From NCBI RefSeq assembly GCF_937890665.1, contig NZ_CALADU010000025.1, positions 1-41,006 of the forward strand: a DNA stretch of 41,006 bases, in the 5' to 3' direction. The position numbers and the translations under genes are program-made. The notes below the pieces were generated by a model that saw only the letters and a list, made by a program, of their open reading frames with translations, ran no database searches and was not told where the DNA came from. Below are positions 32,403 to 40,931 of this stretch, in pieces. This DNA comes from an uncultured Subdoligranulum sp. (GTDB lineage: Bacteria > Bacillota_A > Clostridia > Oscillospirales > Ruminococcaceae). How positions within the stretch are numbered: position 1 is the first letter of the stretch; each line of letters starts with the position of its first letter.

Positions 32403-32627
32403 ATGGATAATGCAACGCTTAGCCTTTCTTATAACAGCCTTTGGAAACTGTTGATTGACCGTAAATTGAAGAAAAAAGATTTACAGAATATGGCACATCT
32501 CAGTTCGTCCGTGATTGCTAAAATGGGAAAAGATCAGCCGGTCCATCTGGATACGATTGTAAAAATATGTGTTGCCCTTCAATGTGATATTTCAGATGTC
32601 GTTACACTGTGTAATAAGGAGGCGTAA
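32403..32627 (+). CDS. Small XRE/Cro-type HTH regulator
   Basis: This 74-aa protein is just a helix-turn-helix domain of the Cro/C1 type common in Firmicute mobile elements: SLWKLLIDRKLKKKDLQNMA (helices 1-2), SSSVIAKMGKDQPVHLDTIVKICVALQ (recognition helix and helix 4, given here as VIAKMGKDQ and HLDTIVKICVALQ) and DISDVV. Such small proteins are usually autorepressors. It ends 3 bases before the TetR-type gene, so the two form an operon. Confidence 0.87.
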   Translation: MDNATLSLSYNSLWKLLIDRKLKKKDLQNMAHLSSSVIAKMGKDQPVHLDTIVKICVALQCDISDVVTLCNKEA

Positions 32628-32630
32628 CGC

Positions 32631-33194
32631 ATGGCCAGTTTTACTAAAAAAGCCATTCGGGATTCATTTGTGAAACTATTGAACGAGAAGCCTTTGAGCC
32701 AAATTACCATTCGGGATATTGTAGATGACTGCGGCGTGAACCGCAATACCTTTTATTACTATTACCAGGACCTGCCGCAATTGGTGGAAAGCGTTGTAGA
32801 TGAGGATGCGGAGCGGATTATCCGGGGGCATCCTACCATCGATTCCCTGGACGATTGTATCAATGCAGCACTGGAATTTGCTCTGGCCAATCGGAAAGCA
32901 GTGCTTCATATCTATCATTCCGTCAACCGAGACATTTATGAGCAATACCAATGGCGGGTCTGTACTTATGTGGCCAGGACGTATGTAGACGGCGTTCTAG
33001 GCAACCGAAAAATGACATCTGAGGATTATACCACCGTTGTAGATTATCTGAAATGTGTCAGCTTCGGTATGATCATGGGCTGGCTGGAAACCGGTATGAA
33101 CCCGAATGCTATGGCCCGGTTTCGGCGGATTTTAGAATTAAAGTGCGGTGATTTGGAGCATCTCATTGACCGTTGTGAGAAAATGCGGTCATAG
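32631..33194 (+). CDS. TetR/AcrR-family transcriptional regulator
   Basis: This 187-aa protein has an N-terminal TetR HTH (residues about 5-50: KKAIRDSFVKLLNEKPLSQI, then TIRDIVDDCGVNRNTFYYYY) and a C-terminal all-helical ligand domain. The FYYYYQD end of the HTH is typical. The ligand is unknown; given the lipase- and fatty-acid-related genes that follow, a fatty acid or related lipid is a guess. AAGGAGG precedes the ATG. It is followed by palindrome copy 1 and the hydrolase gene. Base composition here is clearly lower in GC than in the host genes. Confidence 0.9.
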   Translation: MASFTKKAIRDSFVKLLNEKPLSQITIRDIVDDCGVNRNTFYYYYQDLPQLVESVVDEDAERIIRGHPTIDSLDDCINAALEFALANRKAVLHIYHSVNRDIYEQYQWRVCTYVARTYVDGVLGNRKMTSEDYTTVVDYLKCVSFGMIMGWLETGMNPNAMARFRRILELKCGDLEHLIDRCEKMRS

Positions 33195-33200
33195 TCTTTA

Positions 33201-33260
33201 GGCAAGCCTACCCCCTGTGTCTGAATTTCAGACACAGGGGATATTTTGTCTGTGGAAAGT
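33201..33260 (+). promoter_or_regulatory. Repeated palindrome, copy 1, upstream of the hydrolase gene
   Basis: CCCCTGTGTCTGA (33212-33224) and TCAGACACAGGGG (33228-33240) are a perfect 13-bp inverted repeat with a 3-base centre. The sequence from GGCAAGCC (33201) through about 33258 recurs at 34315-34373 before the oleate hydratase gene. It sits 34 bases upstream of GATAAT (33275-33280), the probable -10 box, which has no good -35 box. It may also help to terminate the TetR gene. A regulator binding site shared by both genes is the best reading. Confidence 0.6.
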
Positions 33261-33338
33261 TTTTGAAAATGATTGATAATATGGTAACAAAATCCGAGTG
33301 GATGTTTTTCTTCGCTCTTATAACGAAAAGGAGGCAAC

Positions 33339-34268
33339 ATGAGAATCGAAAAAATACTTTCTGAGTTTGACGGACTGGGGCTGGAAATCGCAGTGATTGT
33401 GCCAGAGGGGAATCCCAAAGGCGTTATTCAGTTTTCCCATGGTATGGCTGAACACAAGGAGAGATACTACGACTTCATGAATTATCTTTCCGATCATGGA
33501 TATGTGTGTGTTATTCATGACCATCGTGGACATGGTGGAAGTGTGGAAAAGGCAGAGGATTATGGCTTTTTCTATACCGAGAATGAACAGGCAATCATTG
33601 AGGATCTGCATACCGTTACAAAGTATATTAAACATATCTATTCTGGCCTTCCTGTATTTCTGTTTAGTCACAGCATGGGTACGCTTGTTGCCCGGGGTTA
33701 TCTGAAAAGATATGATTCGGAAATTGACAAAGTTGTTCTGTGCGGTCCGCCGACCTATAATGCGGCAGCGGGGCTTGGTCTGCTTCTGGCCAGACTTTCA
33801 AAACCCTTCATTAAGGAAAAGGCTCCGAATAAAATGTTGAATGCTATGGCCTTTTCGCAGTTTAATGCCGGAAATTCGATTCCGAATGGCTGGCTCTCAG
33901 AAAACCAAGCCAATGTTGCACAATACAACCAAGATCCGAAATGTGGATTTATCTTTACCACAAATGGGTTTGTCAACCTTTTGAGGCTGCAAAAAGCGGC
34001 TTTTGAGAAAAGAAACTGGCATGTAAGCAACCCACATTTGCCAATTCTTGTCATTGCCGGTGAGGAAGACCCGGTTATTCGATCAAGAAAGCGATTTGAA
34101 CAGCTAATCGCTTTTTTATCGGAGCTGGGCTATACAAATATCAGCAGCAAACTGTATGAACATATGCGTCATGAGATACTCAACGAAGAGAAAAAGCTGG
34201 ATGTATATAAAGATATTTTGCTTTTTTATGATGAATTCCAGCATACAACTTCATATTCCCAGGTATAA
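33339..34268 (+). CDS. Alpha/beta hydrolase (lysophospholipase / monoacylglycerol lipase-like)
   Basis: This 309-aa protein belongs to the serine aminopeptidase S33/PldB hydrolases that cut monoacylglycerols or lysophospholipids to free fatty acids. It has QFSHGMAEHKERY (oxyanion region), VIHDHRGHGGS, and the nucleophile elbow SHSMG with Ser112 (usually GHSMG; the Gly is replaced by Ser). The acid is probably the Asp in AGEEDPVI and the base His in MRHEILNE. No signal peptide is seen, so it is likely cytoplasmic. AAAAGGAGG precedes the ATG. It has its own terminator (34268-34293). Substrate is inferred from family only. Confidence 0.85.
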   Translation: MRIEKILSEFDGLGLEIAVIVPEGNPKGVIQFSHGMAEHKERYYDFMNYLSDHGYVCVIHDHRGHGGSVEKAEDYGFFYTENEQAIIEDLHTVTKYIKHIYSGLPVFLFSHSMGTLVARGYLKRYDSEIDKVVLCGPPTYNAAAGLGLLLARLSKPFIKEKAPNKMLNAMAFSQFNAGNSIPNGWLSENQANVAQYNQDPKCGFIFTTNGFVNLLRLQKAAFEKRNWHVSNPHLPILVIAGEEDPVIRSRKRFEQLIAFLSELGYTNISSKLYEHMRHEILNEEKKLDVYKDILLFYDEFQHTTSYSQV

Positions 34269-34293
34269 GCAGGACTTCGGTCCTGCTTTTTTT
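34268..34293 (+). terminator. Intrinsic terminator after the hydrolase gene
   Basis: AGCAGGAC-TTCG-GTCCTGCT (34268-34287) with a UUCG-type loop, followed by seven T. A textbook terminator that overlaps the stop codon, so the oleate hydratase gene needs its own promoter. Confidence 0.95.
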
Positions 34294-34314
34294 GCGATAC
34301 GAGTCAAAAAACCA

Positions 34315-34373
34315 GGCAAACCTACCCCCTGTGTCTGAATTTCAGGCATAGGGGGTATCTCTGTCCATAGGAA
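34315..34373 (+). promoter_or_regulatory. Repeated palindrome, copy 2, upstream of the oleate hydratase gene
   Basis: GGCAAACCTACCCCCTGTGT and the following CTGAATTTCAGGCATAGGGG repeat copy 1 with few changes. The right arm is less perfect here (GGCATAGGGG against GACACAGGGG). It lies 66 bases upstream of the -10 box TATAAT (34391-34396), nearly the same spacing as in copy 1 (64). A terminator already precedes it, so termination cannot be its main job, which supports a regulatory role. Confidence 0.6.
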
Positions 34374-34390
34374 AGGAAGAATCTTCCCGA

Positions 34391-34396
34391 TATAAT
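34391..34396 (+). promoter_or_regulatory. -10 box of the oleate hydratase operon
   Basis: A perfect TATAAT follows CCGA, with no convincing -35 box 16-18 bases upstream (TAGGAA). A weak -35 with a palindrome centred near position -60 is a layout seen at activator-dependent promoters. Confidence 0.6.
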
Positions 34397-34459
34397 GAGG
34401 GCGTAAACAAAAAAACACCTCTCAAATAAAGGATGCCAATATAACAAGGAGGAAAAATT

Positions 34460-36238
34460 ATGTATTATTCCAGCGGTAATTACGAAGCCTTTGCCCGTCC
34501 CAGAAAGCCCGAGGGCGTGGACAACAAATCCGCCCACATCATCGGCACCGGCCTTGCGGCTCTGACTGCCGCCTGCTATCTGGTTCGTGACGGACAGCTG
34601 CAGGGTCAGAACATCCACATCTATGAGAAAGACCCCATTCCCGGCGGTGCATGCGATGGCTGGCAGTACCCCGATGTAGGCTATGTCATGCGGGGCGGAC
34701 GGGAGATGGATAACCATTTCGAGGTCATGTGGGATTTGTTCCGCTCCATTCCGTCCATCGAGACAGAAGGGGTCAGTGTTCTGGACGAATACTACTGGCT
34801 GAATAAGAAAGACCCCAACTACTCCCTCTGCCGGGCAACCGTCAACCAGGGTCAGGATGCCCACACCGACGGCAAGTTCGGTCTGTCCGACAAGGCTGCA
34901 ATGGAGATCATGAAGCTGTTCTTCACCCCCGATGAAGACCTGTACGATAAGCGCATCACGGATTTCTTCGATGATGAGGTGCTGAACTCCAATTTCTGGC
35001 TCTACTGGCGCACCATGTTTGCCTTTGAGAACTGGCACAGCGCTTTGGAAATGAAGCTGTATCTCAAGCGCTATATCCACCATGTGGGCGGTCTGCCGGA
35101 CTTCAAGGCTCTGCGGTTCACCCGTTATAACCAGTACGAATCTATGATTCTGCCCATGGTCAAGTATCTGGAAGGCTTCGGTGTCCAGTTCCACTATAAC
35201 ACCAAGGTGGTCAATGTGGAGTTCGACATCCAGCCCGGTAAAAAGCAGGCAAAGCGTATTGAGCTGCTGTCTGAGGGCAAACATCAGTTTGTTGACCTGA
35301 CGGAAAACGATCTGGTGTTCATTACCAACGGTGGCTGCGTGGAGAACGCCACCATGGGTTCCCAGAACACCGTGGCACCCTTCAACCCCGAAATCAAGCC
35401 CGGCGGCGGCTGGGATATGTGGCGCAGAATTGCTGCACAGGATCCTTCCTTCGGTCATCCCGACAAGTTCTGCCATGATCCTGAGCAGTCCAACTGGATG
35501 AGCGCCACCGTCACCACACTGGATCAGAAGATCATTCCCTATATCAAGAATATCTGCAAGCGTGACCCCTTTACCGGCGGCGTGGTTACCGGCGGCATCG
35601 TGACCGTGAAGGATTCCGGCTGGCTCCTGAGCTGGACCATCAACCGTCAGCCCCAGTTCCGGAATCAGCCCAAGGATCAGTGCCTGGTGTGGGTTTACGG
35701 TCTGTTCTCCGACAAACCCGGCGACTTCGTGAAGAAGCCCATGCGGGAGTGCACCGGTAAGGAAATCTGTATGGAGTGGCTGTACCACATCGGCGTGCCG
35801 GTGGGGGAGATCGAGGAGCTGGCCGAGCACAGCGCCAACACTGTGCCGGTGATGATGCCCTATATTACCGCTTTCTTCATGCCCCGTGCCGCCGGTGACC
35901 GTCCTGATGTGGTGCCCGAGGGTGCTGTGAACTTTGCGTTTCTGGGTCAGTTTGCCGAAACCAAGCGGGATACCATCTTCACCACCGAGTATTCCATGCG
36001 TACCGGCATGGAGGCTGTCTACACCCTGCTGGACATCGACCGTGGTGTGCCCGAGGTCTGGGGCAGCGTCTACGATATCCGTGATCTGCTGAACGCCACC
36101 ATCCAGCTTCGGGACGGCAAGCCCCTGACGGAAATGAACCTGGGTTTCAAGGAGAAAATGGTGGTCAAGAAGCTGCTGGAGAATATCCGCGGAACAGATA
36201 TCGAAAAGCTGCTGAAAGAATATCATGTAATTGAGTGA
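34460..36238 (+). CDS. ohyA: Oleate hydratase
   Basis: This 592-aa FAD enzyme (formerly myosin-cross-reactive antigen) adds water to the cis-9 double bond of unsaturated fatty acids, giving 10-hydroxy acids. It has the family N-terminus YYSSGNYEAFARPRKPEGV, the dinucleotide-binding IIGTGLAALTAACYL (about 27-41), IYEKDPIPGGACDGW, and YVMRGGREMDNHFE with the water-activating Glu at 82, the same number as in Staphylococcus OhyA. Length is normal for the family. AAGGAGG lies upstream of the ATG. GC content is higher than in the regulators to its left. In gut and pathogenic bacteria the enzyme detoxifies host or dietary fatty acids. It is followed by radical SAM and metK genes. Confidence 0.96.
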   Translation: MYYSSGNYEAFARPRKPEGVDNKSAHIIGTGLAALTAACYLVRDGQLQGQNIHIYEKDPIPGGACDGWQYPDVGYVMRGGREMDNHFEVMWDLFRSIPSIETEGVSVLDEYYWLNKKDPNYSLCRATVNQGQDAHTDGKFGLSDKAAMEIMKLFFTPDEDLYDKRITDFFDDEVLNSNFWLYWRTMFAFENWHSALEMKLYLKRYIHHVGGLPDFKALRFTRYNQYESMILPMVKYLEGFGVQFHYNTKVVNVEFDIQPGKKQAKRIELLSEGKHQFVDLTENDLVFITNGGCVENATMGSQNTVAPFNPEIKPGGGWDMWRRIAAQDPSFGHPDKFCHDPEQSNWMSATVTTLDQKIIPYIKNICKRDPFTGGVVTGGIVTVKDSGWLLSWTINRQPQFRNQPKDQCLVWVYGLFSDKPGDFVKKPMRECTGKEICMEWLYHIGVPVGEIEELAEHSANTVPVMMPYITAFFMPRAAGDRPDVVPEGAVNFAFLGQFAETKRDTIFTTEYSMRTGMEAVYTLLDIDRGVPEVWGSVYDIRDLLNATIQLRDGKPLTEMNLGFKEKMVVKKLLENIRGTDIEKLLKEYHVIE

Positions 36239-36251
36239 TAGAAGCTTCACT

Positions 36252-36274
36252 GGGGGGAGGCGTTGCCTCCCCCC
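36252..36274 (+). terminator. GC-rich hairpin between ohyA and the radical SAM gene
   Basis: GGGGGGAGGC (36252-36261) and GCCTCCCCCC (36265-36274) pair perfectly with a 3-base loop. Only CTTATATA follows, so termination is probably partial. It may set a lower level for the two downstream genes or protect the ohyA message end. Confidence 0.55.
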
Positions 36275-36295
36275 CTTATATATGGAGAGATAAAG

Positions 36296-37666
36296 ATGTC
36301 ATTTACAAATCAACTGAAAAAAGCAACTCTGCGTACTGCTTTTGGCTACTTGGAGAAAAATCCGGAAGAAAATGCTCTGAAACTGATGTCCTGGGTGGAT
36401 AAGCTGGCTGGCGATGGCCCAGACAGTTTCCCAGTCCAGCGCGCGGCAGTTCGTCAAGTGCTGGAAGACCCGCAGAACAACATGTATCAGCTCGTTATGA
36501 ACATCCTGAAGGAGACGGATTCGGAGGTTCTAAAGGCCACCTTTGAAAATTTCTTCCTCAACGCGAATATCATCGGTTGGCCAAAGCAGGAGGAATACCG
36601 GAAGAAATATAACTGCAATATTCCTTGGGCCATTCTGCTTGACCCTACCTCTGCCTGCAACCTGCACTGCACCGGCTGCTGGGCCGCGGAATACGGCAAC
36701 AAGCTGAACCTGACCTTTGACGAGATCGATTCCATTATCACCCAGGGCAAGGAAATGGGCGTATATATGTACATATATACCGGCGGTGAGCCTCTGGTTC
36801 GCAAAAAGGACCTGATCACCCTGTGTGAAAAGCACAGCGACTGCCAGTTCCTTTCCTTCACCAACGCCACATTGATCGACGAAGCTTTTGCAAACGAGAT
36901 GCTCCGGGTGAAGAATTTTATCCCTGCCATCAGCGTGGAGGGCTTTGAGTCTGCCACCGATGGCCGCCGGGGCAACGGTACCTACCAGAAAGTGATTCAG
37001 GCAATGGCAATCCTGAAGGAGAAGCATCTGCCCTTCGGCCTGTCCTGCTGCTACACCAGCCAGAATCTGGATTCTATCAGCTCCTATGAATTTATTGATC
37101 AGATGATTCAGTGGGGTGCTCGGTTTGTCTGGTACTTCCACTACATGCCCGTGGGCAATGACGCAGTGCCGGAACTGCTGCCCAATCCTGAGCAGCGGGA
37201 ATTCATGTATCACAGGATCCGGGAGATCCGGGCTACCAAGCCGATCTTCGCCATGGACTTCCAGAACGATGGCGAGTATGTAGGCGGCTGCATTGCCGGT
37301 GGACGGCGGTATCTGCATATCAACGCCAACGGTGACTGTGATCCCTGCGTGTTTATCCACTATTCCAACGCCAACATCCGGGACATGAGCCTGCTGGATG
37401 TACTGCGCAGCCCCATTTTCATGGCCTATCACGATGGGCAGCCCTTTAACGATAACCATCTGCGTCCCTGCCCCATGCTGGAGAATCCGGAAAAGCTGCG
37501 GGAAATTGTGAAAGCTACCGGCGCTCATTCCACAGACCTGCAATCCCCGGAAACGGTGGATCACCTGTGCGATAAATGCGAGGCTTACGCAAAGAACTGG
37601 ACCCCCACCGCCACCGAGTTGTGGAGCTGCAGCTGTGCGAAGAAAAAGGGAGAAGCGGCAAAATGA
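36296..37666 (+). CDS. Radical SAM enzyme with SPASM-like C-terminus
   Basis: This 456-aa protein has a helical N-terminal region of about 105 residues, then a radical SAM core with Cys121-x3-Cys125-x2-Cys128 (DPTSACNLHCTGCWA) and the GGEPL SAM-binding motif (YTGGEPLVRK). After the barrel, CIAGGRRYLHINANGDCDPCVF and further cysteines (RPCPM, LCDKCEAYAKNW, SCSC) indicate auxiliary iron-sulfur clusters as in SPASM proteins. The substrate is unknown; no small precursor peptide gene is seen nearby, and the company of oleate hydratase suggests a lipid. GGAGAG precedes the ATG at 36296. The stop overlaps the metK start (ATGA). Confidence 0.88.
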   Translation: MSFTNQLKKATLRTAFGYLEKNPEENALKLMSWVDKLAGDGPDSFPVQRAAVRQVLEDPQNNMYQLVMNILKETDSEVLKATFENFFLNANIIGWPKQEEYRKKYNCNIPWAILLDPTSACNLHCTGCWAAEYGNKLNLTFDEIDSIITQGKEMGVYMYIYTGGEPLVRKKDLITLCEKHSDCQFLSFTNATLIDEAFANEMLRVKNFIPAISVEGFESATDGRRGNGTYQKVIQAMAILKEKHLPFGLSCCYTSQNLDSISSYEFIDQMIQWGARFVWYFHYMPVGNDAVPELLPNPEQREFMYHRIREIRATKPIFAMDFQNDGEYVGGCIAGGRRYLHINANGDCDPCVFIHYSNANIRDMSLLDVLRSPIFMAYHDGQPFNDNHLRPCPMLENPEKLREIVKATGAHSTDLQSPETVDHLCDKCEAYAKNWTPTATELWSCSCAKKKGEAAK

Positions 37667-38811
37667 CAACCTTCTTTACCTCTGAAAGCGTCACAGCGGG
37701 ACACCCGGATAAGGTATGTGACCAGATCGCCGATGCCATTTTGGATGCCCTTTTGGAAAACGATCCCCATTCCCATGTAGCCTGCGAAGTAACTGCCATT
37801 CCCAACGGGATCCACATTTTCGGCGAGATCACCTCGGCTGCCCGTGTGGACTATGCCGCTATTGCCCGGCAGGTGGTTCGGGATATCGGGTATGTGAAGC
37901 ACGGCTATGGCTTTGACGCAGACACCTGCCAAATCACAGTGGATATCCATGAGCAATCCCCCGATATCAACATGGGTGTGGAGAAGACGGATTCTATGGA
38001 AAACGGCGCAGGAGATCAGGGCATGATGTTTGGTTACGCATGCAAGGAAACGGAAAACCTGATGCCGCTGCCCATTGAGCTTGCCCATGCGCTGACAAAG
38101 CGCCTTGCCTTTGTGCGGCAGGAGGGAATTCTGCCCTATCTGCTGCCAGATGGGAAGGCCCAGGTCACCGTGGAGTACCGGGACGGAATCCCGGCATGGG
38201 TGGACACTGTTGTAGTTTCTTCCCAGCATGAGGCGGATGTGTCCATGGAGCAATTGCGGGAGGATATTCTCCGCCATGTCATCCGCCCGGTGATCCCGGA
38301 GGGCATGCTGGACAGGAACACAAAATTCTTTATCAATCCTACAGGCCGTTTCTGCATTGGCGGTCCCGCCGGTGACAGCGGCCTGACGGGCAGGAAGCTG
38401 ATCGTGGACACCTACGGCGGCTATGCCCGGCATGGCGGCGGCGCGTTCTCTGGTAAAGATCCCTCAAAGGTCGACCGAAGTGGTGCGTATATGGCCCGGT
38501 ACTTGGCGAAGAATGTGGTTGCGGCGGGATTGGCGGATCGGTGTGAGATCCAGATCAGTTACGCTATCGGCGTTGCCCAGCCGGTATCCCTTCTGGTAGA
38601 CACCTTCGGTATGGGAAAGCTCCCGGCAGACCGGATCCGGGAACTGATTCTTAAAACGGTTGACCTGCGCCCCTCTGCTATCATAGACCGCCTTTCCCTG
38701 CGAACACCGTTTTACAGACACACCGCAAGCTATGGTCACTTTGGCTCAAATACTGCGGAATTACCTTGGGAACAGACAAACTTGCCGCAGCTTTGGCAGG
38801 ATATAATCTGA
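37663..38811 (+). CDS. metK: S-adenosylmethionine synthetase
   Basis: This 382-aa enzyme makes S-adenosylmethionine from ATP and methionine. Family blocks are present in order: FTSESVTAGHPDKVCDQIADAI (in short, GHPDKVCDQ), GAGDQGMMFGYA, NPTGRFCIGGPAGDSGLTGRK and GGGAFSGKDPSKVDRSGAY (PSKVDRS). Length is normal. The ATG at 37663 overlaps the radical SAM stop by 4 bases, so the two are translationally coupled. The host almost certainly has a housekeeping metK elsewhere; this one is probably a dedicated copy that feeds the radical SAM enzyme. A hairpin follows 20 bases after the stop. Confidence 0.95.
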   Translation: MTTFFTSESVTAGHPDKVCDQIADAILDALLENDPHSHVACEVTAIPNGIHIFGEITSAARVDYAAIARQVVRDIGYVKHGYGFDADTCQITVDIHEQSPDINMGVEKTDSMENGAGDQGMMFGYACKETENLMPLPIELAHALTKRLAFVRQEGILPYLLPDGKAQVTVEYRDGIPAWVDTVVVSSQHEADVSMEQLREDILRHVIRPVIPEGMLDRNTKFFINPTGRFCIGGPAGDSGLTGRKLIVDTYGGYARHGGGAFSGKDPSKVDRSGAYMARYLAKNVVAAGLADRCEIQISYAIGVAQPVSLLVDTFGMGKLPADRIRELILKTVDLRPSAIIDRLSLRTPFYRHTASYGHFGSNTAELPWEQTNLPQLWQDII

Positions 38812-38831
38812 TTTCGTGATAGAAGATCCTA

Positions 38832-38880
38832 ATAGCCGGATTGCCCCAAGGGTTGCATTGGGCAGTCCGGCTATCTGTGT
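38832..38880 (+). terminator. Terminator of the ohyA-radical SAM-metK operon
   Basis: ATAGCCGGATTGCCC (38832-38846) pairs with GGGCAGTCCGGCTAT (38860-38874), 15 bp with one G-U. It is followed by CTGTGTTAT, a poor T-run, but the stem is strong and well placed. Confidence 0.75.
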
Positions 38881-38930: not shown

Positions 38931-39605
38931 ATGGACTTTGAAAGAATCCTGCAAATGACGACAAGTGAGCGTAATCTGGCGCTCTTACAGGACGAGGCTT
39001 TCGTGGATGATGTGACAGAGTTTCTCGCAATCCGTCAGTTGTACAATGCTGCAATTAAGCAAGTAAGGACCAAACTTGAGATTCTTAATGATGGATTCCA
39101 AGTAGAGCACTGCCACAATCCTATCCACCATATTGAATGTAGGCTGAAGTCTCCAGGAAGTATGCTCGAAAAGCTCAGACGAAAAGGATACCCCATAGAA
39201 ATGCAATCCCTTCGTGAGGGTATTCTTGATATTGCTGGAGTTCGGGTCGTGTGCAATTACCTAAATGATGTAAATCTAGTCGCTGACCTGCTCCTTTCTC
39301 AAGATGACATTCGTTTGCTTAAGAAAAAGGACTTTATTTCTAATCCAAAGTCAAACGGATACCGGAGTCTCCACCTAATTGTTTCAGTTCCCATTTTCTT
39401 GGCGGGGACAACAGAACACATTCCTGTTGAGATCCAAATACGGACAATTGCTATGGACTATTGGGCGAGTTTAGAGCATCACCTAAAAGACAAGACTGAA
39501 AACGATGTGTCAGATTCCCTTAAATGTCGTCTGAAACATGATGCAGATTTGCTGTCTGCAATTGATGCCGATCTGCAAGATATTTTTTGTCAAATGAATG
39601 CTTAG
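38931..39605 (+). CDS. Small alarmone synthetase (RelQ/YjbM-like, RelA/SpoT domain)
   Basis: This 224-aa protein is a stand-alone RelA/SpoT nucleotidyltransferase that would make (p)ppGpp from ATP and GDP or GTP. Motifs are RLKSPGSMLEKLRRKGYP (substrate loop), LREGILDIAGVRVVCNY with the metal-binding Asp, NGYRSLHLIV, and VEIQIRTIAMDYWASLEHHLK with the catalytic Glu. There is no HD hydrolase, TGS or ACT domain, as expected for RelQ/RelP types. AAAAGGGGG lies before the ATG. AT-rich codon use sets it apart from ohyA and metK, so it may have a different origin. Confidence 0.93.
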   Translation: MDFERILQMTTSERNLALLQDEAFVDDVTEFLAIRQLYNAAIKQVRTKLEILNDGFQVEHCHNPIHHIECRLKSPGSMLEKLRRKGYPIEMQSLREGILDIAGVRVVCNYLNDVNLVADLLLSQDDIRLLKKKDFISNPKSNGYRSLHLIVSVPIFLAGTTEHIPVEIQIRTIAMDYWASLEHHLKDKTENDVSDSLKCRLKHDADLLSAIDADLQDIFCQMNA

Positions 39606-39775
39606 TCTGCTCTACATTCAGATTGGCAGTATAGACGGAAGAGTTGGCTGATATGTCAGCTCATGTAGTAAATTACGATGCGAAATCACACTTTTTATAT
39701 ATAAAAAGATTGTCTATGAGGTACGTGACCTTCACGCAACCATGAGAATATTGACAAAACAAGGAGGTGTTTTTT

Positions 39776-40384
39776 GTGCAACTGAACAACCGGATTAAAG
39801 CCGCAAAAATTGGCTATATCATGATCTCTATTCTGTTATGTGTATTGGGAATTGTACTGATTGCTGTGCCTGATTTCTCGGTGACGCTGCTATGCAGGCT
39901 CGGCGGAGGAATCATGGTTCTATTCGGCTTGGTAAAGATCGTCGGCTATTGTTCCAAAGACTTATACAGGCTGGCATTTCAATTTGATCTGGCCTTTGGC
40001 ATTCTGCTCGTGGCACTTGGCGTCATTCTGATCATCCGTACAGATGCAATGGTTAATCTTATCTGCATTGTTATGGGCATCTGTGTTCTGGCAGACGCGC
40101 TCCTCAAAATACAGATTTCCATTGATTCCAAAGCCTTTGGCATTCAAAAGTGGTGGCTGATTCTCGCTGTAGCAATTCTGACAGGGGCTGCCGGTTTCCT
40201 GCTGCTCTTACGCCCATCGGAAAGCGCCCAGGTCGTGATGATCTTGCTGGGGGTGACGCTCATAACCGAAGGTGTGCTAAATCTGATCACCATTCTGACC
40301 GCCGTTAAGATCATTCGTCACCAGCTGCCGGAGGTCATCGATGCCGAATATTGCCAGATAGACCCTAACAGAAAGGATATGTAA
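39776..40384 (+). CDS. DUF308 / HdeD-family membrane protein
   Basis: This 202-aa protein has six hydrophobic segments in three similar hairpins, for example YIMISILLCVLGIVLIAVPDF in the first pair (ISILLCVLGIVLIAVPDF) and LAVAILTGAAGFLLLLRPS in the third, the pattern of DUF308/HdeD proteins. The function of this family is unclear; E. coli HdeD aids acid resistance. The GTG at 39776 sits 8 bases after AAGGAGG (39761-39767) and is preferred over the GTG at 39767, which lies inside that site. It is followed 6 bases later by a transporter gene, suggesting an operon. Confidence 0.85.
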   Translation: MQLNNRIKAAKIGYIMISILLCVLGIVLIAVPDFSVTLLCRLGGGIMVLFGLVKIVGYCSKDLYRLAFQFDLAFGILLVALGVILIIRTDAMVNLICIVMGICVLADALLKIQISIDSKAFGIQKWWLILAVAILTGAAGFLLLLRPSESAQVVMILLGVTLITEGVLNLITILTAVKIIRHQLPEVIDAEYCQIDPNRKDM

Positions 40385-40390
40385 TCATCT

Positions 40391-40750
40391 ATGTGTTTTT
40401 CAAAGGCGGTTGTAAAATACCGCATACCGATCTTAATTCTAACCGTTTTGCTGATGATTCCGGCAGTGATTGGCATTGCAAATACCAGAATCAATTATGA
40501 CATGCTGAATTACTTGCCGGAGGATATGGATACCATCATCGGGCAGAATGAACTCATGGAGGATTTTGGGAAGGGCGCTTTTTCCTTCATTATCGTGGAG
40601 GATATGCCGAACAAGGATGTAGCTGCCCTGAAGGCAAAAATTGAGCAGGTCGATCATGTGGATACCGTGATCTGGTATGACACCCTGTTTGACCTTAACT
40701 CAAGATTACGGCATTACGCCTTCGATGTCAAGACGTGGGAACCCGTATGA
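40391..40750 (+). pseudogene. Truncated MMPL/RND-type transporter, N-terminus only
   Basis: The first 100 residues match the start of MMPL/RND transporters: a membrane helix (PILILTVLLMIPAVIGIA), then NTRINYDMLNYLPEDMDTIIGQNELMEDFGKGAF (conserved NYDMLNYLP) and the first extracytoplasmic domain (VDHVDTVIWYDTLFDLN). Family members are 700 or more residues long. At about 40693-40697 the sequence passes into an IS3-type transposase gene in another frame, and the last 18 or so codons are not transporter sequence. The gene is broken here by an insertion or recombination, or by an assembly join. AAAGGA lies upstream of the ATG. Confidence 0.85.
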
Positions 40751-40931
40751 CAATGCAATGGCTGAAAATTTCTTTTCCATTCTCAAAACAGAGTGCATTT
40801 ACCGCCAAAAGGTCAAGACGTTTCAGCAAGCAAATTATTTGATTGACGAGTACATCCATTTCTACAATTATGAGCGGCTCCAGACAAAGACTGGCCTGGC
40901 TCCGCTCTCGCTTCGCCAAGCCAGTCTCTAA
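40677..40931 (+). pseudogene. 3' fragment of an IS3-family transposase
   Basis: The frame encodes the last part of an IS3 OrfB DDE transposase from about 40693: LTQDYGITPSMSRRGNPYDNAMAENFF (in pieces, SMSRRGNPYDNAMAENFF), LKTECIY with the catalytic Glu, then FYNYERLQTKTGLAPLSLR. The two catalytic Asp and everything before them are absent. The first codons (40677-about 40692) are transporter sequence read in another frame, so the apparent ATG is not a true start. The fragment is inactive. Confidence 0.88.

Follow-up and report, generated by a model that had tools for sequence, protein, structure and literature searches.

The window, meaning the whole 41,006-nucleotide stretch analysed here (contig NZ_CALADU010000025.1 of an uncultured Subdoligranulum sp.), carries towards its 3′ end a gene module centred on a radical S-adenosylmethionine (SAM) enzyme. 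Genes for a TetR regulator, an alpha/beta hydrolase, the oleate hydratase OhyA, the radical SAM enzyme and the SAM synthetase MetK are consecutive on the + strand (32631-38811), confirming an earlier annotation of this DNA made from its sequence alone (the original prediction), in which the four enzymes were placed in line behind a TetR regulator. Beyond metK, the same strand continues with genes for a RelA/SpoT-type synthetase and a DUF308/HdeD protein and with the beginning of an MMPL gene. All three travel along in relatives, and the extent first given for the module, 33201-38880, thus ends too early. The main features are as follows, the queries for the radical SAM enzyme and MetK having begun one codon upstream (36293 and 37660) and so containing one extra residue each.

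32631-33194, + strand, TetR regulator (TetR_N and TetR_C_8)
33211-33240, + strand, palindromic operator candidate 1, about 100 bp 5′ of the hydrolase gene; core TGTCTGAATTTCAGACA at 33218-33234
33339-34268, + strand, alpha/beta hydrolase (Hydrolase_4)
34325-34354, + strand, palindromic operator candidate 2, about 105 bp 5′ of ohyA, with two mismatches to candidate 1; core at 34332-34348
34460-36238, + strand, oleate hydratase OhyA (NCBIfam NF010584; RGGREM loop, R81/E82, Y201)
36296-37666, + strand, radical SAM/SPASM-like enzyme (Radical_SAM and SPASM) with a helical N-terminal domain at residues 1-105
37663-38811, + strand, SAM synthetase MetK of the clade linked to the radical SAM enzyme (TIGR01034)
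39767-40384, + strand, DUF308/HdeD-like membrane protein (PF03729)
40391-40750, + strand, 5′ portion of an MMPL/RND gene (HpnN/RND matched weakly, Pfam not at all)
40677-40931, fragment of an IS3-type transposase gene, following the 5′ part of the MMPL gene

The radical SAM enzyme

The enzyme matches the radical SAM family PF04055 with 60.9 bits (cut-off 29.5) and the Pfam SPASM domain PF13186 with 26.6 bits (cut-off 21.5), and the NCBIfam matches listed, 25 of 51 families, are all far under their cut-offs. Its earlier description as cysteine-rich is borne out by its conserved cysteines: the CxxxCxxC motif (C121, C125, C128), C252, C351, C392 and C425 are invariant across all 58 sequences of the alignment, that of the window among them, and C332 and C428 are retained in 57 of 58. 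The full SPASM domain has a seven-cysteine pattern, CX9-15GX4C, CX2CX5CX3C and a further C. Conserved in the SPASM region here are C332-X13-G-X4-C351, C392 and C425-X2-C428, the middle block being non-canonical. The N-terminal domain is all-helical in the structure model, with no clear match in the PDB and no match to the Pfam RRE (PqqD-like; RRE, recognition element of ribosomally synthesized and post-translationally modified peptides, RiPPs). The family is large, with at least 7,997 proteins scored, and its long form is found in 64 of 291 genomes of the class sample (best E-value cut at 1e-100; the fragmentary case G012 is not counted).

In six genomes a shorter paralogue which lacks CxxxCxxC and retains the N-terminal region lies on the opposite strand beside the active enzyme (L087:8288-9367, L114:6955-7926, L115:10086-11126, L118:7219-8286, L120:2209-3270, L121:3544-4599). 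No Pfam family is matched by the copy in L120. The paralogue is a candidate pseudo-radical-SAM partner or sensor. Two loci (L018:9125-10513 and L030:5071-6435) possess a second radical SAM enzyme of about 50% identity, with OhyA present in the locus of the first, so that two subfamilies have OhyA context. There is also a rumen Methanosphaera plasmid (L083:7365-9077) on which a homologue of the enzyme (34%) comes immediately after a TetR gene, a pair which may reflect transfer into archaea.

A dedicated MetK

MetK scores 558 bits against the equivalog model TIGR01034 (cut-off 309) and contains the stretches GHPDK, GAGDQG, DTYGG and GGGAFSGKDP, presumably the canonical motifs of the enzyme. While it is a full-length member of the canonical family, it differs in belonging to a separate clade, in being a second copy where the genome is checkable and in its coupling to the radical SAM gene. 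The stop codon of that gene and the start codon of metK overlap by four bases, ATGA (37663-37666), as originally noted, and the same overlap recurs in L010, L012, L036, L052, L058 and L060 as well as in the near-identical islands. The gap is 1-3 bases in L019, L023, L024 and L026 and about 13-15 bases in L085 and L086 (genomes G194 and G150), and most of the linked MetK clade conserves either the overlap or a spacing of 1-3 bases.

In a 31-row MetK tree, 14 copies adjacent to the radical SAM gene and one nearby copy form a single clade (support 100/99), inside which none of the 16 unlinked MetKs falls, including the unlinked copies of G001, G150 and G194. The tree excludes nine linked copies that are broken or near-identical, and the partial copies of L002 and L008 never entered it. 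A metK gene was detected in 63 of the 64 genomes with the long-form enzyme and adjoins its gene in three (G001, G150, G194), against a rough chance expectation of 0.09. Each of these three genomes has a further metK copy elsewhere. In the genomes open to this check the linked MetK is therefore additional to another copy, in agreement with the dedicated MetK of the original prediction. On the tree of the latter the metK link requires at least five changes, indicating that it has been lost or regained with the radical SAM gene repeatedly, MetK still being one lineage.

A second, divergent MetK (open frame of 397-427 amino acids, about 467-481 bits) that does not adjoin the radical SAM gene was observed in G065, G146, G148, G210, G282 and G284. 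The three of these that were sampled branch apart from the linked clade.

TetR regulator and candidate operator

The 30-base palindrome 5′ of the hydrolase gene, found again 5′ of ohyA, was obtained in none of 100 shuffles. Its core, TGTCTGA-N3-TCAGACA, is of the TetR type. With up to two mismatches allowed, 29 core sites are present in 160 loci, as against a mean of 5.5 (maximum 15) for 40 permuted half-sites. In 15 of these cases a TetR gene is no more than 400 bp away and the site falls in no gene marked by hidden Markov models; the permuted mean for this class is 0.15 (maximum 2). In different genomes, 26 of the sites are located 80-141 bp 5′ of the hydrolase, ohyA, radical SAM or hdeD gene, the three stray matches being the second site of L067 and those of L144 and L159. 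The radical SAM gene is the nearest gene 3′ of the palindrome in L029, L038, L051, L056, L075 and L085, the last of which (enzyme 57% identical) has the order TetR-site-radical SAM-MetK. In L037 and L067 the palindrome is 124 bp 5′ of hdeD, which is followed by MMPL; in the window, where the MMPL gene is truncated, the palindromes sit at the hydrolase gene and ohyA. The sites come from 19 loci, equivalent to about nine radical SAM groups at 90% identity, L078 with its broken radical SAM gene being placed in the group of the window. The exact palindrome occurs five times in the 291 whole genomes, twice at the radical SAM module, and no module gene was seen alongside the other three.

Oleate hydratase and hydrolase

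OhyA matches NF010584 (MCRA) over residues 1-591 with 943 bits (cut-off 567) and aligns with Staphylococcus aureus OhyA (7kav) across residues 1-590 of 592. R81, E82 and Y201, to which roles have been assigned in the S. aureus enzyme (excerpt of PMC7948970), are retained together with the catalytic loop RGGREM. The window OhyA thus keeps the residues required for hydration, and hydration of cis-9 fatty acids is predicted from its sequence. It differs from this full-length homologue in its setting, an operon context with the radical SAM enzyme and MetK in a gut anaerobe. The hydrolase has the motif SHSMG at residue 110 and weakly resembles lysophospholipase L2, with a score under the cut-off of that model.

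Gene neighbourhoods and mobility

Across 55 radical SAM groups (90% identity, drawn from 80 loci and the window), the representative has within 7 kb a gene for TetR in 29 cases, MMPL in 13, HdeD in eight, DegV in eight, MetK in seven and OhyA in six. These counts are lower bounds owing to contig ends and missed genes; for MetK, the L018 copy is 5.9 kb distant on the opposite strand and the L019 gene was missed by the gene caller. TetR is accordingly the commonest partner, not a universal one, and neither OhyA nor MetK is an obligate partner. Of 105 representatives (88% identity, 141 sequences), 31 have TetR at up to 1.2 kb, ten have OhyA at up to 7 kb and seven have MetK at up to 500 bp; the labels pool merged copies, and the ten OhyA rows correspond to eight loci, L018 and L030 holding two radical SAM genes each. 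The immediate upstream gene by Pfam is TetR in 31 of 85 representatives and MetK is the commonest immediate downstream family (6 of 87); for 20 and 17 of the 105, respectively, gene calling gave nothing usable in the adjacent 600 bp. L019, where the called open reading frame (ORF) is antisense to metK, was left out of the downstream count, and the metK start of L001 was moved inward. Locus genes are from codon-scored calls, by which some genes are still missed.

The set TetR/OhyA/radical SAM/MetK/HdeD/MMPL recurs in varying orders in L012, L019, L021, L031 and L037. It is arranged as TetR-OhyA-HdeD-MMPL-partner-radical SAM-MetK in L019 and as TetR-radical SAM-MetK-HdeD-MMPL-partner in L012, and L001 and L005 have the order TetR-hydrolase-OhyA-radical SAM-MetK-RelA-HdeD-MMPL-partner. 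Genes for DegV/FakB-like, patatin and lysyl-phosphatidylglycerol-synthase-like proteins are found near other members of the radical SAM family. OhyA is present in 30 of the 291 genomes, in 16 of the 64 with the long-form radical SAM enzyme as against 14 of the 227 without it (Fisher p 6.6e-5, kinship not corrected).

At about 32.4-40.4 kb the DNA of the window is 92-99% identical to that of L003, L005, L006, L007 and L078. L001, from a Lachnospiraceae genome, matches it with 98% identity beyond 34.3 kb. Cultured carriers include Catenibacillus scindens DSM 106146, whose near-identical island L002 has a shortened metK, and Fournierella massiliensis (L009). A Mob_Pre relaxase is encoded upstream of the module. 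The 92-99% identity across loci indicates that the window version of the module was transferred recently. Homology of the MMPL gene to its relatives stops near 40696, where the IS3-type fragment begins. L001, L005 and L078 encode an MMPL protein of 701 amino acids, followed in L001 by a protein of 732 amino acids with no Pfam match, and the pump part of the module has probably been lost in the window copy, judging from this comparison.

Proposed function and alternatives

The island, located next to genes of mobile elements in gut Clostridia, may be a unit under TetR control by which the cell responds to exogenous unsaturated fatty acids or to damaged membrane lipid, with a radical SAM step fed by the dedicated MetK, a reading given a probability of about 0.5. 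Gene context speaks for fatty acids or membrane lipid, in agreement with the lipid-modifying module originally proposed, and the lipid reading is likely to be right in outline. TetR would act as a repressor on the palindrome and come off it in response to a long-chain fatty acid or its acyl derivative. The hydrolase would free or handle acyl esters, OhyA would hydrate cis-9 double bonds to 10-hydroxy acids, thereby detoxifying cis-9 acids, and MMPL and HdeD, where intact, may potentially export lipid or adapt the membrane. The radical SAM enzyme, whose action on an acyl chain or lipid we infer from gene context, would carry out an oxygen-independent 5′-deoxyadenosyl-radical step on substrates beyond the reach of hydration; a free fatty acid and the OhyA product, as originally suggested, are candidate substrates. 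Its SAM would come from the co-translated MetK, a dedicated synthetase being sensible if SAM is a co-substrate consumed at high flux. A tentative and rather doubtful extension is that the enzyme represents a new class of fatty-acid enzyme, abstracting hydrogen at an unactivated or (bis-)allylic carbon of an unsaturated acyl chain and then isomerising, desaturating or coupling that chain, with the cysteine-less paralogue of the six loci as acyl-binding partner or sensor. A radical mechanism has been considered for linoleate isomerase activity, and as a speculation the enzyme might be a radical linoleate isomerase of gut Clostridia.

A number of observations weigh against a fatty-acid-response unit. 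Most sampled relatives of the radical SAM enzyme have no OhyA or MetK nearby, and the more distant ones mostly have no module gene alongside. Of the 16 genomes that contain both OhyA and the long-form radical SAM enzyme, just two (G001 and G091; rough chance expectation 0.13) have the two genes no more than 7 kb apart, and DegV near the radical SAM gene is only weakly above chance in the class sample (four loci, rough expectation one to two). The site count is inflated by near-identical islands, which make up about half of the loci with the candidate operator. None of 20 OhyA upstream regions has the palindrome with up to two mismatches, including the radical-SAM-linked copy of G091 (20 of the 32 OhyA places in the class sample, two shortened by contig ends), so that the palindrome marks the module and not OhyA generally. 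The closest solved structures to the radical SAM enzyme are those of peptide- or protein-modifying members of the superfamily, and an ORF of 76 amino acids with a hydrophobic C-terminal stretch is located 5′ of the radical SAM gene in three loci, all of one group (L052:656-886, L058:218-445, L060:9574-9804).

Such structural likeness would suit a peptide or protein maturase of the RiPP type, which is nonetheless considered unlikely. Among 103 loci, no family of small intergenic ORFs at up to 3.5 kb recurs in three or more (E 1e-3), in a search that could miss divergent or distant precursors; precursor peptide genes beside the relatives, which the original prediction had named as a sign of accidental grouping, are thus not seen family-wide. 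The helical N-terminal domain with neither a clear PDB nor a Pfam RRE match, and the failure of any of the 25 NCBIfam matches listed to reach its cut-off, also speak against a maturase. It is somewhat improbable, yet to be taken more seriously, that the regulon is real and answers membrane-active compounds generally (bile acids, alcohols, antimicrobials), the target of the radical SAM enzyme being a cofactor, membrane protein or other non-lipid. Several representatives have TetR alone among the genes sought, TetR_C_8 is no ligand signature, and TetR, MMPL and DUF308/HdeD are compatible with general envelope stress also, whereas OhyA and the DegV/FakB-like, patatin and lysyl-phosphatidylglycerol-synthase-like neighbours have acyl-lipid functions.

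The coupling of two acyl chains to a membrane-spanning lipid of the diabolic-acid type, as by Tes or a bacterial membrane-spanning lipid synthase, would agree with the lipid context, with the joining of lipid tails by archaeal radical SAM enzymes such as Tes (excerpts of PMC9433317, PMC8941075 and PMC11868695) and with the production of diabolic-acid lipids by Butyrivibrio (excerpt of PMC13274423); it is viewed as very unlikely. Hardly any weight is left for an accident of mobile-element cargo, already strongly disfavoured: the near-identical DNA and the relaxase fit it, while the common candidate operator in divergent genomes, the MetK clade and the occurrence of the same set in other orders oppose it. 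The view that the genes belong together hence survives, because they have a common candidate operator, a dedicated MetK clade and a recurring gene set, whereas the pairing of the radical SAM gene with ohyA and metK is not obligatory: in the co-occurrence search suggested originally, ohyA and metK are minority neighbours (within 7 kb in 6 and 7 of 55 groups).

Comparison with known systems

The system is a variant of a fatty-acid-response locus centred on an uncharacterised, widespread radical SAM family. Fatty-acid resistance of S. aureus involves FarR (TetR) and FarE (MMPL), OhyA and Fak (excerpt of PMC12098983), which are likened at the level of families to the TetR regulator, the MMPL-family gene, the oleate hydratase and the DegV/FakB-like genes of some radical SAM loci. 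Here, the hydratase and membrane genes are instead under one candidate operator type, often in one locus, and there is a radical SAM enzyme with a dedicated MetK, neither of which is mentioned for S. aureus in the excerpt of PMC12098983. SuiB, SkfB and the anSME maturases share with the window enzyme the radical SAM core and a SPASM-like C-terminal part, and theirs are the nearest solved folds. The window enzyme differs from them in its helical N-terminal domain, in which no RRE was seen, and in its partial SPASM cysteine pattern, and its family is often linked to TetR and has no family-wide precursor gene.

For archaeal lipids, Tes and Gms are established examples of radical SAM enzymes that work on hydrocarbon chains without oxygen (excerpt of PMC11868695). 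If gut Firmicutes indeed have a radical SAM enzyme responsive to fatty acids, it would be new relative to the literature found, and a radical step on the acyl chain would be an oxygen-free counterpart of lipoxygenase- or desaturase-type chemistry for anaerobes. The common candidate operator and dedicated SAM synthetase provide a testable hypothesis for the tolerance and transformation of dietary unsaturated fatty acids by gut anaerobes; host effects are reported for hydroxylated fatty-acid products such as 10-hydroxystearic acid (10-HSA; excerpts of PMC11004285 and PMC13423806).

Other genes of the island

Two further genes accompany the module in the window:

38931-39605, + strand, small RelA/SpoT-type alarmone synthetase (PF04607)
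32403-32627, + strand, small Cro/C1-type helix-turn-helix protein (PF13443), just 5′ of tetR

The alarmone synthetase gene lies inside the near-identical islands. Clustered relatives are present in 12 of 80 loci, namely nine near-identical islands and L018, L030 and L063, the copies near the radical SAM gene in these last three being more distant relatives. The small helix-turn-helix protein has clustered relatives in six loci (L003, L005, L006, L009, L012 and L063).

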